From the NCBI GenBank assembly GCA_002356455.1, contig AP017968.1, positions 2,604,001 through 2,668,000 of the forward strand: a DNA stretch of 64,000 nucleotides, written 5' to 3'. This DNA is from Fusobacterium varium. GTDB taxonomy: Bacteria; Fusobacteriota; Fusobacteriia; Fusobacteriales; Fusobacteriaceae. The notes under the pieces are model-generated. The model was not told the DNA's origin. It ran no database searches and worked only from the letters and a program-made list of their open reading frames with translations. This document shows, one piece after another, positions 3,499 through 40,660 of the stretch. A program made the position numbers and the translations under genes. Within the stretch, counting starts at the first letter, position 1. Every line of letters starts with the position of its first letter.

Positions 3499-5619
3499 TT
3501 ATACCCCCTCAGCCACTGTTGATGCTGCTTCTGCCAATCCATTATAAAACTTACTTACTACACCATCCACATCCATTTCACTGTTTATATTATTATTGAA
3601 TGTGTTATTGTTATTTATAGAAGCTGTTGTGTATCTATTAATAACCTCTTGTTCTGCAACATCTCTAAGATATTTCAATTCTTCTTTTGTCAGGTCCAAA
3701 GTACTGTTAGTTTTCCCTGTATTTCCTGCAATAGTTTTTAATAGGTCATTTGTCACTCCTAAATTTAAACTTCCCTTTATGTTATTAGCTATCTCTACTG
3801 TTTTGTCATGTGCATTTTTAAATGCTTCTTTTGGATCTGAAAGTTGAAAATATTCAGGATTCATTCTTGGAATTTTTATTTTATTTTCTTTTACATTTTC
3901 ATTCCTCCAAGTATTTAATTTATCTTGAAAATCATTCAATCCTGATGAAAGGTTAGTTCCTAAAACTTTATCAATTACTCCTGATACTGTTGTTAATATT
4001 TTTATTATATTTTCTCCTAAATCTAAAAACAAATTCTTCACTGCAGTTACTGGATCATTAAATAGATTAGCTAAAAACTCTGCAAATGTTGCAAAATTGT
4101 TGTATATAATTGAAATCGTAAACATTATATTATTGGCAAAAACTTTAAGTAAATTAAATGTTGAAGTTACAAAATAGGCTATAGCTCCTGCTATAACACC
4201 AAAAGTTGATAAACTCATTCCCTTGGTTTTATTAAGCCATTCTACAAGTTTATATATCGCATATACAACTCCCATAATTGCTAATGCTATCCAAACAACA
4301 GGGCATGCTAGAAAGGCTGCTGATAATCCTTTTACCCCAATTGTTAGAGCTGCTGTACTTCCTGTCATTATTCCTGTTGCCAATGTTGCCAAGGCTACTG
4401 CCCCATTATAGAGTACATACACAGCTGTTAATCCCAAGGTAGCTGCTGCATTTGCACCCTTTGCAATAGTATCTTTAATCGTTGCAGCAGTAGAAGCTAT
4501 TACAGCCCATTTTAATTGTACAAACCCTATTGTTGCTATTGTTAATATTGGAACTATATAACTACTGTATTTTCTAATCCAGTTTACCATCCCAGCCACA
4601 GCTGATATCAGCCCTCCTATTGCTAAAATACTAATATTTATTCCCAGTGATATAGTATTAACAAAATTTTTAAAAGATTCACTATTAAACATCTTTGACA
4701 GCTTTTCTGATACTGGTTCAAAGTTTTTTATAAAAGTATTTTTAATAGAGGTTCCTATCTGCCCTAAAGTTTTAGGCATACTTTCAAATTTTTTGTTAAT
4801 GTCATCTGCTGCTCCAAACATTGCTGCTTTTACTACACCTGCTGTAAGTTTTCCCTGATCTGCCATTTCCTTAATCTGAGCTTTAGTTTTTCCTAAATGT
4901 TTGGCCAGATAATCAATCATAGTTGGCATCCCCTGCTGTACTGATCTAAATTCTTGTCCTCTTAAAACTCCCATAGACATAGCTTGCTGTAATTGAAGCA
5001 TAGCTCCTTCTTTGGCTGCCCCTTCAGTTCCTGCTATAGTAAATTGTTTATTTGCCAATTCCATAAAACTTATTACTTCCTTGCTGCTTCCAAAGGTATC
5101 TTTTGCTGTTATTCCCATTGTTGCTGCTGCATTGGCAGTAGCAAAATAATCTGCCCTGGATCTTTGAGCTGATTCAAAAAGAGCTCTTTTGATATCTTCT
5201 GGATCCTCATTTGCTTTTGCCATTATATTTACTCTGGCATTCATTGTCGTTATCTCATCTGATAATCCTAAAAGTTTCTTCCCAAAGGTAATTCCTCCTA
5301 ATGTTAAAGCTAATCTTTTTGCTTTTGCTATAAGTCCTTCCAATGGACCTCCACCTTCACGAAACCTATTATTGAGCCTGCCAGCTTCATCTCCATTTTC
5401 TCTTATTTGATTTTCCAGTTCCTGCTGCCATCTTAATAAATCAGCAGAGGTTTGATTAAGTAAATTTTGAGATGCTTGGAGAGATGAGGTATCAATATTT
5501 ATATTTGCATTATTTACTGCTCTAAGTGTAGATATAACATTATTCACTGAATTTACTATGTTCATAAGTGGTTGTGTCATACCATTCATAAGATTAATAC
5601 TTGCATTTATTTGCGCCAT
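3499..5619 (-). CDS. Tail tape measure protein
   Basis: 706-aa tape measure protein that sets tail length and leaves the tail during DNA entry. The N-terminus is helical. A tape-measure domain follows (residues about 95-290), with runs such as RADYFATANAAATMGITAKD and FRSVQQGMPTMIDYLAKHLG. The middle (about 320-540) carries several hydrophobic, glycine-rich segments that could insert into membranes, as is common in these proteins. At about 1.5 angstrom per residue, the usual scaling, it would correspond to a tail near 100 nm. The gene begins just after the frameshifted chaperone, behind an AAGGAGG site. Confidence 0.92.
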   Translation of the reverse strand: MAQINASINLMNGMTQPLMNIVNSVNNVISTLRAVNNANINIDTSSLQASQNLLNQTSADLLRWQQELENQIRENGDEAGRLNNRFREGGGPLEGLIAKAKRLALTLGGITFGKKLLGLSDEITTMNARVNIMAKANEDPEDIKRALFESAQRSRADYFATANAAATMGITAKDTFGSSKEVISFMELANKQFTIAGTEGAAKEGAMLQLQQAMSMGVLRGQEFRSVQQGMPTMIDYLAKHLGKTKAQIKEMADQGKLTAGVVKAAMFGAADDINKKFESMPKTLGQIGTSIKNTFIKNFEPVSEKLSKMFNSESFKNFVNTISLGINISILAIGGLISAVAGMVNWIRKYSSYIVPILTIATIGFVQLKWAVIASTAATIKDTIAKGANAAATLGLTAVYVLYNGAVALATLATGIMTGSTAALTIGVKGLSAAFLACPVVWIALAIMGVVYAIYKLVEWLNKTKGMSLSTFGVIAGAIAYFVTSTFNLLKVFANNIMFTISIIYNNFATFAEFLANLFNDPVTAVKNLFLDLGENIIKILTTVSGVIDKVLGTNLSSGLNDFQDKLNTWRNENVKENKIKIPRMNPEYFQLSDPKEAFKNAHDKTVEIANNIKGSLNLGVTNDLLKTIAGNTGKTNSTLDLTKEELKYLRDVAEQEVINRYTTASINNNNTFNNNINSEMDVDGVVSKFYNGLAEAASTVAEGV

Positions 5620-5631
5620 CCTATCTCCTCC

Positions 5632-6227
5632 TTATCTCTTTTTTCTGTTTCTTTTTGATTTCTTTTCTTCTTTTTTCTCTTGTTCTACTTTCTCCAGTAT
5701 ACATGCATCTACAAATGCCCTTTCATTTTCTGGAAGACTTAAATATACACTTGGCAGCATTTTTAATTTATGAAGGCAATAGTAGGCAAGATTTGCCTCG
5801 CTATCACCTTCCTTTATTAGTTTTTTGCCTGTTTAACCTTTTCTTGGTATGTTTCAGTAAAACCATTTACTTCTTGAACTTTCATTAAAAGTCTCTGATA
5901 TTCTCCAGCTGTGAACATCACTTCTAAAAGATCTACTTCATTTTTTACCTCATAACTATCTTGAAGTTCCGCATTTCTCAAATCTGGTTCAGATATACAT
6001 GTAGTCATCAGTAAGGCCATGTATTTATTAGTATCAAAATCTATTGCCCCACTTTTTAAATCTTTAATTTGAGATTGAGCTCTTAACTGAGCATCCAATT
6101 TCCCTGATATTGCTCTTATTTTAAATTTAGCTGGTTTTCCCTCTTCATCTAAAAATCTATCTGATGGAGCATATTCTACCACTCCTATTGTTTTTGCATT
6201 TCCTTTTAAAAATGTTGTTAAACTCAT
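5632..6227 (-). CDS. Tail assembly chaperone, long product made by -1 frameshift (GT-like)
   Basis: The long form of the tail assembly chaperone shares its first 134 codons with the short form, then changes frame at the slippery site A AAA AAC (5826 to 5820) just before the short form's TAA. In the -1 frame the reading stays open for 62 codons (LIKEGDSEANLAYY onward) and ends in a lysine-rich tail at 5632, giving about 198 aa. The stop lies 11 bases before the tape measure start and overlaps its ribosome site. Tail chaperones of this kind, directly upstream of the tape measure gene, are the classic case of programmed frameshifting in tailed phages. No downstream pseudoknot was modelled. Confidence 0.85.
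5817..6227 (-). CDS. Tail assembly chaperone, short product (G-like, XkdN-like)
   Basis: 136-aa zero-frame product of the tail chaperone gene. It is thought to coat the tape measure protein during tail assembly and not to be part of the virion. The sequence has the expected pattern for XkdN/gp137-like chaperones: MSLTTFLKGNAKTIG at the start, then a helical body. It ends KQAKN at the slippery heptamer. It lies 12 bases downstream of the tail tube gene. Confidence 0.82.
   Translation of the reverse strand: MSLTTFLKGNAKTIGVVEYAPSDRFLDEEGKPAKFKIRAISGKLDAQLRAQSQIKDLKSGAIDFDTNKYMALLMTTCISEPDLRNAELQDSYEVKNEVDLLEVMFTAGEYQRLLMKVQEVNGFTETYQEKVKQAKN
5820..5826 (-). promoter_or_regulatory. Programmed -1 ribosomal frameshift site A AAA AAC
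   Basis: On the minus strand the zero-frame codons GCA AAA AAC TAA contain the canonical X XXY YYZ heptamer A AAA AAC, directly before the stop codon. Slipping one base back opens a 62-codon extension that ends just before the tape measure gene. The heptamer is among the most efficient known bacterial -1 sites, and the position matches other tail chaperone genes. Confidence 0.85.
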
Positions 6228-6239
6228 ATTTCTCTCCTC

Positions 6240-6716
6240 CTATGCTATAAATCCATCTAATGGTTTAAATGTTTCTTGTATTTCAAAATCTTCAAATGTA
6301 AAATCGAAGTCCTCATCCAAATAATCTGCATCTGCATCAAATTTGGCTAATATTCCTCCATCTAAATTACAATCCTTAAATATTACTGTCTGTCTTCCTA
6401 CTGCTGATGTAGGATCCTCATTTGTTACCATGATAGTGAAATAAGTATCTATCCCATCATTTTTATACTTTTCTAAAAGTTCTCTCATTACAGATTGATT
6501 GAAATGACATGTCATTGATCCTGTTCCAGTCCATCCATTTGCCTTGTTTCCTTTTCCAGGTCTTCCAAGTATAGGAACTTCTGTTTTATTTTTTTCAAAA
6601 GTTGCTTCAAAAGTTATTGCCTGCATAAAATTATATCTATTTCCATCTATTGTAATATAACATTCTGCTTCTGAACCACTTATAGCATCTTTTCCATGCA
6701 TCGTTACTCTTCTCAT
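6240..6716 (-). CDS. Phage tail tube protein, XkdM-like
   Basis: 158-aa tail tube protein of the XkdM (DUF2001) type. It polymerises into the inner tube inside the contractile sheath. Family features include GNRYNFMQAITFEATFEKNK near residues 28-47, then PILGRPGKGNKANGWTGTGS and the C-terminal DFDFTFEDFEIQE. It lies directly downstream of the sheath gene, as in all contractile-tail operons. Confidence 0.9.
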   Translation of the reverse strand: MRRVTMHGKDAISGSEAECYITIDGNRYNFMQAITFEATFEKNKTEVPILGRPGKGNKANGWTGTGSMTCHFNQSVMRELLEKYKNDGIDTYFTIMVTNEDPTSAVGRQTVIFKDCNLDGGILAKFDADADYLDEDFDFTFEDFEIQETFKPLDGFIA

Positions 6717-21551: not shown

Positions 21552-22310
21552 TTATTTTCCTCCTAAACAAACCTTCAACATCATATATGCATCTGCACTA
21601 TCATCACTGTCAGCTTCAACTCCTGTATATTCAAAAAACTTTTTCATCATAAATTCTTTTTGATCCTGTCTGTGAACAGGCACTCCTTCAATTCTATGCT
21701 TCCAAAGTACAGCAGGAACAAGGAGTAAATCTAAATTTAATTTTTTAATATGATATGTCAGCATACCTCTAACCTCACTCAACTTAGTTAAAACATCAGA
21801 ATTCAATCCCAGATATACATCCTCAAGAATCACAACATCAATCATTCCTTTCTCCAGTATTTCCACTAGCTGCTTAACTATTTCCAATCCTCTTTCTCTA
21901 AAATCATTATGATCTGATTTTATAGTTTTCCATCTGACTATAGTTCCATTTTTACTATATGCTATTCCAGTTGATGTGGTAGAGAGGTCTATTGATAATA
22001 CATTTTTATATCTCAAATTATTAGGTATCACACATGTATTTTTAGCTTTATTCACTAATCTAGTTCTTTCTTTCAACTGTAATTCTGTTTTCAGCCTTTT
22101 TAGTTTTTTTCTCTCAATCAAATCAAAGCAAGTATTATTTCTTATTTGATTAAGAGTTGCCATTTGAAGATTCCCAGTTCCAATAAATTGAATATCAAAA
22201 CAGTAATTAAGTTTTTCTTTAAACAAATATTTTAATACCTTATACTTTTCTCCAATTTTATTAACAAATTCCTGTCCTACATATTCCTCTGGATTAATTT
22301 TTTTGCCCAT
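21552..22310 (-). CDS. RuvC-like Holliday junction resolvase
   Basis: 252-aa protein. Residues 1 to about 100 are an extra N-terminal region. Residues 104-252 have the RuvC/RNase H fold with the expected acidic residues: Asp108 in LSIDLSTTSTGIAY, Glu163 in VVILEDVYLG, and the C-terminal pair in DDSADAY (residues 237 and 240). Such phage enzymes cut branched DNA made by replication and recombination before packaging. The N-terminal extension (QEFVNKIGEKYKVLKYLF) may be a separate DNA-binding module. It overlaps the upstream small gene by 17 bases. Confidence 0.85.
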   Translation of the reverse strand: MGKKINPEEYVGQEFVNKIGEKYKVLKYLFKEKLNYCFDIQFIGTGNLQMATLNQIRNNTCFDLIERKKLKRLKTELQLKERTRLVNKAKNTCVIPNNLRYKNVLSIDLSTTSTGIAYSKNGTIVRWKTIKSDHNDFRERGLEIVKQLVEILEKGMIDVVILEDVYLGLNSDVLTKLSEVRGMLTYHIKKLNLDLLLVPAVLWKHRIEGVPVHRQDQKEFMMKKFFEYTGVEADSDDSADAYMMLKVCLGGK

Positions 22311-22500
22311 TCTCCACCTCCATTCTCTTTAAATTTCTATACATCTGCCTAAATTGCTCTTGTATTTCAAAATTCATTCTATCAAAATACCATCTATTTA
22401 ATTTCACATAAGCTGCCAAATCTTTAGAATTCATAATTGATAATCCAGTATAATAAAATTCTATAAAAGAAGCTCCTCTATCTAATTTTAGATTTTCCAT
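22294..22500 (-). CDS. Small phage protein of unknown function
   Basis: 68-aa helical protein (MENLKLDRGASFIEFYYTGL at the start). The ATG at 22500 is chosen because it follows GAGGTGGCT at proper spacing; a GTG two codons earlier is too close. It is the first gene after the repeat-rich non-coding region and overlaps the resolvase gene. No domain is seen. Confidence 0.6.
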   Translation of the reverse strand: MENLKLDRGASFIEFYYTGLSIMNSKDLAAYVKLNRWYFDRMNFEIQEQFRQMYRNLKRMEVENGQKN

Positions 22501-22522
22501 AGCCACCTCTTATTTAATTATT

Positions 22523-22937
22523 GTAGTCACTTTGTAGTCAAATTATTAAAAAATACTATTTCTTATAAATCCTTATATTATAAGGCTTTAAATATTTTAT
22601 GTAGTCAAGTGTAGTCATTTTGTAGTCATTTACATATTCGTTACAAAAATAGGATTAAAGATATTTTTAACTATATTTTTTAACTTTGTAGTCAAAAAAA
22701 TATTTTATCTCTTAGTGAAATTTTTTTTTGGAATATATTTTTATTTTTTATACTCAAATATTTTTTTATATGCATATACAACTTTTTTTTGACTACTTGA
22801 CTACATTAATTTAAAAATAAGTTTTTAAGTTTATTTTAACAATTATAATTTGACTACATTTATGACTACATATTTTAAAAAAATATCTATATTTCTAATT
22901 TTTAATTCAAAAAAAGTGTCTACAAAATATTGACTAC
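22523..22937. repeat. Inverted array of 11 GTAGTCA heptamers, probable phage origin or operator region
   Basis: A 440-bp non-coding stretch between the primase-helicase gene and a small gene contains GTAGTCA six times on the plus strand (starting 22523, 22534, 22601, 22611, 22622, 22688). Its complement TGACTAC occurs five times (22790, 22798, 22851, 22863, 22931). All copies left of centre point one way and all copies right of centre the other, around a very AT-rich core with T and A runs. Iterons beside a replication initiator are typical of origins. A repressor operator array is the alternative. Confidence 0.7.
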
Positions 22938-22943
22938 TTAAAT

Positions 22944-25273: not shown

Positions 25274-25882
25274 TTAAAATGGAAATTCTTCCTCATCATC
25301 TTCTGTTATAATATTTTTATCTGTTTCATATGGTAAAGGGTACCCCTTCTTTCCTTGTTTAGGTTCTTCTTTTTCATAAATTTCTTTAAAATTTTTAACT
25401 GTTACAGCCTCAGTTTTATTTATTATTTCATCTGTTGTTTTCCCAGTTCCTATATCATAAAAATCTTTTATGCTTATATTGTAATTATCTTCTTTTTTTT
25501 CTACTTCTAACATCATTCCTACTTTTTTACCATGTAATTCTGGTAGGAAAGTTCTATCAACTTCATTTCCATTAAATAGCTTTACTTTTTTAGTTTCTTC
25601 TTTTAATTTATCTAATTTTAATTTTGCTAAATATATTAATCTTTCTATGTTCCTTTCAACAGAATCATTAGGTTCTCCGTTACCTTTTAAATACCATAAA
25701 CTAACTCTTCCATATAACTCATCATTTGAAAAACTTAATGTAATTCCTTTAGCACTTGATTTTGTTGAGTCTGATAAATATGCCTCATTTATTTCTAGTT
25801 CATAAGCTCCACTTGCTGTTATTTTCTTTTTAAATCCTGTTTTTTTAGTTAAATTCTCTGGGTTACTTTTCCATAATGCCAT
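25274..25882 (-). CDS. Phage single-stranded DNA-binding protein-like (DUF669 type)
   Basis: 202-aa protein of the type found next to Sak4-like ATPases and primases, often annotated DUF669. The body is beta-rich (ITLSFSNDELYGRVSLWYLK). The C-terminus is an acidic linker ending in EDDEEEFPF, very close to the SSB C-terminal tip that recruits replication and repair proteins. This supports a role as a phage SSB. It lies 16 bases after the recombinase ATPase gene. Confidence 0.75.
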   Translation of the reverse strand: MALWKSNPENLTKKTGFKKKITASGAYELEINEAYLSDSTKSSAKGITLSFSNDELYGRVSLWYLKGNGEPNDSVERNIERLIYLAKLKLDKLKEETKKVKLFNGNEVDRTFLPELHGKKVGMMLEVEKKEDNYNISIKDFYDIGTGKTTDEIINKTEAVTVKNFKEIYEKEEPKQGKKGYPLPYETDKNIITEDDEEEFPF

Positions 25883-40258: not shown

Positions 40259-40337
40259 TAAAAACCCTCCAAATAAAAAATCCAATAAAATAGCTTCCCT
40301 ACCTTATTGGATAAATATATTGCCATATATCTTTCTC

Positions 40338-40492
40338 TATTGGTAAGTCTCCTGACTCAGGTTCATCCTACTTTCATACCTTCCCAGTTTCCCAGTGGCA
40401 CATCATGATTTCGTCCTCTATACAGTAGCTTTCGCTGTGTGGGATTTACACCCAACTTCCTTTATTAAGCTCAAATAAGCACCTATTTTCTA
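40338..40492 (-). promoter_or_regulatory. Cobalamin riboswitch
   Basis: On the minus strand the leader contains the conserved GTGCCACTGGGAAACTGGGA core. The B12 box AGTCAGGAGAC (40357-40347) follows, preceded by ATCCCACACAGCGAAAGCTA in the upstream helices, which is the cobalamin riboswitch pattern. It lies about 80 bases before the CbiR-like gene, so B12 should repress this gene and the btuB-btuF genes behind it. Confidence 0.93.
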
Positions 40493-40660
40493 TTTTTTAT
40501 CAACTTAATAATATAATTTTTAAATATTTTTGTCAATCTCTTTAGAATTACATTCAAATATTAAAAGTTTTGTTTTCTATCCATATATTTTTTAGCTGTT
40601 GAAATTATACATAAAACTATGATACCATTAATTGAAAGAAAATATCAATAGAGGTGTATT

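Follow-up and report, generated by a model that had tools for sequence, protein, structure and literature searches.

The DNA analyzed here, which we call the window, is a stretch of 64,000 nucleotides from Fusobacterium varium (contig AP017968.1, positions 2,604,001 to 2,668,000); window coordinates are counted from its first base. It carries a contractile-tailed prophage, and the subject of this analysis is a gap between two genes of that prophage (22507-22943), one for a 770-amino-acid (aa) primase-helicase and the other for a 70-aa protein. The gap holds eleven exact copies of the 7-mer GTAGTCA, which span 22523-22937; six on the plus strand are followed by five on the minus strand, where they appear as TGACTAC. 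A sequence-only reading had described these six and five copies around an AT core, and the exact coordinates bear it out. They also revealed a degenerate site (GTAGACA, 22917-22923, minus strand), which was absent from its list. With this twelfth site the array has six copies in each half, all of which point inward to an AT-rich core (12.6% GC versus 19.3% GC in the flanks). The whole analysis rests on sequence and predicted structure, and the literature comparison covers open-licence papers. The features are:

22507-22943, no strand: candidate origin, 6+6 inward-pointing 7-bp iterons around an AT-rich core
22523-22529, plus: iteron GTAGTCA, paired with the next at 11 bp
22534-22540, plus: iteron GTAGTCA
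22601-22607, plus: iteron GTAGTCA, start of a triplet (10 and 11 bp)
22611-22617, plus: iteron GTAGTCA
22622-22628, plus: iteron GTAGTCA
22688-22694, plus: iteron GTAGTCA, single, core-proximal
22695-22789, no strand: AT-rich core between the halves, 95 bp, likely melting region
22790-22796, minus: iteron GTAGTCA, in the core-proximal 8-bp pair
22798-22804, minus: iteron GTAGTCA, in the core-proximal 8-bp pair
22851-22857, minus: iteron GTAGTCA
22863-22869, minus: iteron GTAGTCA
22917-22923, minus: degenerate iteron GTAGACA, twelfth site
22931-22937, minus: iteron GTAGTCA, first site from the primase gene, 6 bp off its stop codon
22944-25256, minus: 770-aa putative initiator with a zinc-finger/TOPRIM primase (~1-270), an MCM-like helicase (~370-588) and a helical plus winged-helix C-terminal domain (589-770)

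The density of the 7-mer is far above chance. The window contains 14 copies of GTAGTCA compared to 4.06 expected, a number that none of 100 shuffles reached. The whole genome (4,122,841 bp) has 179 copies (83+96), which corresponds to an expectation of ~0.018 per 415 bp; the word is thus not equally frequent across the genome, whereas equal frequency is what the sequence-only reading had named as refuting its proposal. None of 300 dinucleotide shuffles of the gap gave any 7-mer with at least two G/C eleven times, and the mean maximum was 2.1. The gap has no open reading frame (ORF) of at least 60 aa, and the claim that coding does not explain the array holds as well. Among the genome positions listed there is only one other GTAGTCA cluster, near 2.793 Mb (three copies in 0.83 kb); it lies in and around coding sequence and was set aside as coding chance.

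Next we examined the 770-aa protein. Walker A (SGTTSIGKT) and Walker B-like (WVIDEV) motifs are present in its helicase part, which gave no meaningful Pfam match even at an E-value of 10. The domain DUF927 (PF06048) was not matched at E-values up to 10 in nine helicase parts of this family, and no protein in Fusobacteria passed its cut-off; one candidate, L132, looks like RarA and was discarded. The P4 family helicase domain (TIGR01613/D5) is absent from the window protein and present in the homologous locus L027. A model of residues 373-770, which is partly of low confidence, aligned in VIA-align with Cch of the staphylococcal cassette chromosome mec (SCCmec) (5dgk; Z 12.6, 297 residues) and with Rep of the Staphylococcus aureus pathogenicity island (SaPI) SaPIbov1 (8tch; Z 9.5, 275 residues), although the Foldseek E-values were not significant. 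The next structural matches are MCM helicases, with Z values of 6.7 and below. The last 182 residues, modelled alone, gave a helical part and a winged helix with a predicted local distance difference test score (pLDDT) of 86; once more, SaPIbov1 Rep is their best match (Z 6.5). Such Z values lend support without being conclusive. No P4 origin-binding-domain structure was among the structural matches listed, which proves nothing. On these models the C-terminal winged helix is the likely reader of the iterons. Among the few sequences of relatives the core of the recognition helix is nearly invariant, so the specificity for the word would more likely reside in the wing than in the recognition helix.

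Homologues of the initiator, given L numbers here, were found in five other genomes and in IMG/VR contigs. They were obtained with alignment queries; single-protein scans of viral and genome contigs with the window protein gave none, and the helicase part had no relative among the named phages and plasmids searched. In the window, L015, L016, L017, L018, L019, L035, L036, L116, L118 and L119 the gene is followed directly on its 3' side by an array. The sites of the most regular arrays are listed below as read in the orientation of the gene, with distances from the stop codon; > and < indicate orientation and the bar (/) the core.

Window, GTAGTCA: 7>, 21> (degenerate), 75>, 87>, 140>, 148> / 250<, 316<, 327<, 337<, 404<, 415<
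L015 (protein 95% identical): as the window within a few bases; the first site overlaps the primase stop codon TAG
L035, GTGGTCA/GAGGTCA: 8>, 20>, 73>, ~81> / 173<, 239<, 250<, 260<, 327<, 338<
L036, GTAATCA: 17>, 29>, 82>, 90> (degenerate) / 185<, 250<, 263< (degenerate), 272<, 328<, 339<
L116/L118, GTTACC/T: 6>, 48>, 58>, 70>, 102>, 110> / 207<, 215<, 247<, 259<, 270<, 322<

L015 has an exact GTAGTCA at the spacing of the degenerate site (14 bp from the first), so that both arrays are 6+6. A strict inward orientation with a single switch occurs in four lineages, namely window/L015, L035, L036 and L116-L118, and the array of L116 is a near-perfect mirror image. The comparison with L035, the helicase part of which is 71% identical, is the most informative. 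The six right-hand sites of the two arrays are each offset by exactly 77 bp and hence have identical spacing; in this half 33 of 42 iteron columns are identical compared to 78 of 166 remaining columns, and the third iteron base is changed from A to G in all six sites. L036, with the word GTAATCA, has the same left spacing as the window (12, 53, 8) and a similar right spacing. The AT-rich cores measure 83-95 bp in all relatives except L018. Hence the word differs between relatives and is swapped at all or nearly all sites together, while the location of the array, its inward orientation and a large part of its spacing are kept. As judged from the sequences, this replacement of the word on a conserved layout is what is new.

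The sequence-only reading had stated that absence of the array from close relatives with the primase would speak against an origin; the array is kept in L015, L035, L036 and L116-L119. L033 appeared to be a gene without an array, but was rejected as a counterexample: an insertion of ~1.8 kb splits the gene from the array, which resumes beyond it at the contig end with 98.5% identity to L035. The inserted DNA (4652-6435), placed precisely where the array would otherwise follow the primase stop codon, contains a phage antirepressor-like gene and two genes that resemble a toxin-antitoxin pair (82 and 91 aa). In phiFN37 there is no array behind the primase, and the next gene follows after 2 bp. 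The expected conservation of the orientation switch holds for the four strict lineages and fails in the more distant homologues L016 (GTGCCA/GTTGCCA), L017 (GTAAC), L018 (GTAATCA) and L019 (GTAGCC/GTAGTC), which have an array in place with part of the spacing kept and with mixed orientations. The primase homologue of L019 (1483-4293) is itself unusual; it has 937 aa versus 770, with two long asparagine/serine-rich insertions, and is open throughout.

Recombination breaks inside the primase gene suggest that the origin does not move alone. L032 and L035 are 100% or nearly identical from 1.8 kb upstream to about nucleotide 1070 of the gene, where the identity falls sharply to ~70%. Between L035 and L036, the first 300 nucleotides of the gene show 99-100% identity, followed by divergence through the helicase, the C-terminus and the array; identity is lowest at the C-terminus and array (38-62%) and returns to 86-96% beyond. 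Judging from these breaks, helicase, reader and origin seem to travel as one cassette. Since the reader-coding part of the gene adjoins the origin, a single crossover could transfer the two together. In the genome G036, L027 and L029 share the N-terminal primase (54-55%) and the 70-aa neighbor with this family; a P4-type helicase, shown for L027, replaces the MCM-like one, and the repeats change too (TGTNACA, GTGCCA). A third primase in G036, L019, has the MCM-like helicase. The contigs C17, C20 and C31 of this genome (L019, L029 and L027) thus carry three related prophage primases with three types of origin repeat and two types of helicase.

A scan of IMG/VR for GTAGTCA triplets extends the plan to other helicases. 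The raw triplet counts are uninformative because the reversed control word gives at least as many as listed; the informative measure is the split by orientation and coding. By this measure dense two-way non-coding arrays occur in 24 of the 80 listed loci for GTAGTCA and in 1 of 80 for the reversed word. Eight of the arrays lie directly 3' of genes for VapE-type (PF05272) helicases (L147, L166, L168, L172, L187, L200, L213, L216), on unrelated phage contigs with 34% to 65% GC. L147, L166, L172 and L213 share with the window the word, its two orientations and the position directly 3' of the gene; they differ in the unrelated helicase family, in the mixed orientation of most arrays and, in some cases, in the high GC of the contig. 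The layout of L213 is close to that of the window, with mainly inward halves, a core of ~104 bp and steps of 61 and 65 bp. The word and the plan are therefore wider than the MCM-like helicase family, and their sharing across helicase families may reflect common descent or convergence. We found no description of these VapE-type arrays in the open-licence papers. Dense two-way GTAGTCA arrays also occur beside ORFs of 206-278 aa in L150, L159, L176, L185, L195 and L196, some of them with a 795-aa primase-like gene ~1.5 kb away.

These comparisons also allow a broader proposal, which we offer tentatively and hold to be possible rather than probable. The mirrored array could be an origin scaffold shared by unrelated self-loading phage helicases (MCM-like, P4-type and VapE), on which the word, of the form GT-N-R-Y-C, serves as an exchangeable address; it would change at all sites together with the C-terminal reader, as one cassette, so that prophages in one cell do not fire each other's origins. 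The genome G036, with its three repeat types, would be an example of such cohabiting prophages.

Among known systems the closest is the rep-ori of SaPIs and other phage-inducible chromosomal islands (PICIs). In the sources used here (PMC7145576 and PMC7581432, which cite Ubeda et al. 2007 and 2012, and PMC6092414 for E. coli PICIs) the origin is described as lying directly 3' of the initiator gene, as in the window, and SaPI Rep as binding its iterons there through a C-terminal domain (PMC7581432); the partly low-confidence model mentioned above tentatively resembles the helicase fold of SaPIbov1 Rep. The window initiator differs from SaPI Rep by its fused TOPRIM (DnaG-like) primase and by having no sequence-level match to DUF927. 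Strict inward orientation is a property noted here for the window array. Cch of SCCmec is the best fold match, with the same reservation about the model, and Cch2 uses its C-terminal domain to bind direct repeats that lie downstream of its operon, similar to what we propose for the window protein; Cch and Cch2 have no fused primase, and only three 5-nucleotide iterons are reported for Cch2 (PMC7581432). The alpha protein of phage P4, about as large (777 aa), unites primase, helicase and origin-binding functions, and its crr has inverted short repeats just 3' of alpha. However, the P4 helicase belongs to another AAA+ class, the repeats are 8 bp in the order ++--+ in two 120-bp copies, and P4 is a satellite. 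The window element is a complete prophage with its own terminases, portal, capsid, sheath and tape measure (1.9-18 kb), unlike a satellite, which needs a helper phage for its particle. Iteron plasmid origins of the RepA/RepE type have longer iterons in one orientation and a Rep that is not a helicase, in contrast to 7-bp inverted halves and an initiator with TOPRIM and Walker motifs. The lambda iterons lie inside the O gene and work with a helicase loader, whereas the window array is intergenic and no O/P-like genes are among those annotated.

Together, the relatives, the conserved spacing, the fold matches and the SaPI, PICI and P4 precedents strongly support the earlier suggestion of a good origin candidate beside a primase-helicase gene. 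Very probably a full-size contractile-tailed prophage starts its replication at this array, which would follow the SaPI/PICI plan and be bound by the 770-aa protein. The protein would bind the 7-bp iterons through its predicted C-terminal winged helix and assemble on both flanks, on six mirror-oriented sites each. The two assemblies, presumably opposed hexamers, would melt the 95-bp core and load as opposed helicase rings, from which bidirectional forks could start; the N-terminal TOPRIM domain would then make primers, helped by the phage single-stranded DNA-binding protein (SSB). The right flank has six sites in all four strict lineages, which may fit a hexamer or be a coincidence; their left flanks have four to six.

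Several observations weigh against this interpretation. The AAA+ part of the model has a pLDDT below 50 at fragment residues 98-188, and a Foldseek search of the PDB gave no significant match for either the 373-770 or the C-terminal model. The arrays of L016, L017, L018 and L019 are looser and of mixed orientation; in L019 no single word is significantly enriched (34 of 300 shuffles), and the words of these four loci, as well as the form GT-N-R-Y-C with its variations, were defined by eye. L035 and L036 have no more than 4-5 sites in the left half, and the contig of L032 ends before its array. Because the relatives share ancestry, their conserved orientation cannot be counted as separate evidence for each. 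Bidirectional loading, as suggested by the sequence-only reading, fits the 6+6 inward symmetry, but the GC skew, which that reading had named as a check, shows no turn at the array (window 1-40000). Throughout the prophage the skew follows gene strand and is therefore of no help on this point.

Three other explanations were weighed against an origin bound by the 770-aa protein. The array could be an origin or a replication enhancer that is read by another protein, either a small phage DNA-binding protein or a host factor, with the primase arriving later. A separate reader common to these phages could explain why GTAGTCA arrays occur beside the unrelated VapE-type helicases, and the window phage does encode other small DNA-binding proteins; however, a host factor is hard to reconcile with words that differ among phages of one host group. 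Arrays persist in L016-L018, whose genomes gave no 70-aa neighbor, and the recombination breaks within the primase gene leave its 3' portion joined to the array. We rate another reader as very unlikely. The sequence-only reading had itself raised a large looped operator, in which a repressor bridges both halves and controls the downstream 70-aa protein, RuvC and late genes. Mirror-image sites could indeed be bridged, and the array lies upstream of the 70-aa and RuvC genes, but the weak promoter-like matches inside it are at the level of shuffled sequence (11 found, 11.3 expected). In addition, the conserved neighbor is the initiator gene and no regulator, arrays remain without the 70-aa gene, and where the helicase part is replaced the repeats differ as well; we rate such an operator as very unlikely and less likely than an origin. 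Short repeats are clustered at pac and parS-like sites too, so a packaging, partition or recombination site might be considered instead of an origin. The terminase genes are 4-6 kb away, no partition genes are among the genes annotated here, and the position beside the initiator is constant in the relatives, which leaves this explanation with hardly any credibility.

The array is flanked by further replication genes of the prophage, including those for a Sak4-like annealing protein, SSB and RuvC, and the integrase is at 32.3 kb. The immediate neighbors are:

25274-25882, minus: phage single-stranded DNA-binding protein (phrog_743), in the replication operon of the primase
22294-22506, minus: 70-aa gene beyond the array, kept in part of the family; arrays exist without it
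21552-22310, minus: RuvC-like resolvase beyond the array

Next to RuvC, a 303-aa phage protein (20640-21551, minus strand) has a CxxxCxxC motif (CPRACEFC) like that of radical-SAM enzymes and no Pfam match at 0.001. Past the prophage integrase, a cobalamin riboswitch (40325-40501, minus strand) precedes genes on the minus strand.

Few phage origins can be read from sequence; here a putative initiator, its predicted DNA reader and the candidate sites lie side by side. The window initiator also adds a helicase family for which there is no covering Pfam model. A PICI-style origin in a complete tailed phage would contradict a published claim that only PICIs are organized in this way. Finally, the natural versions, with a different short word on one scaffold, open a long-standing question to testing, namely how specificity can shift jointly in an initiator and in a dozen scattered sites.
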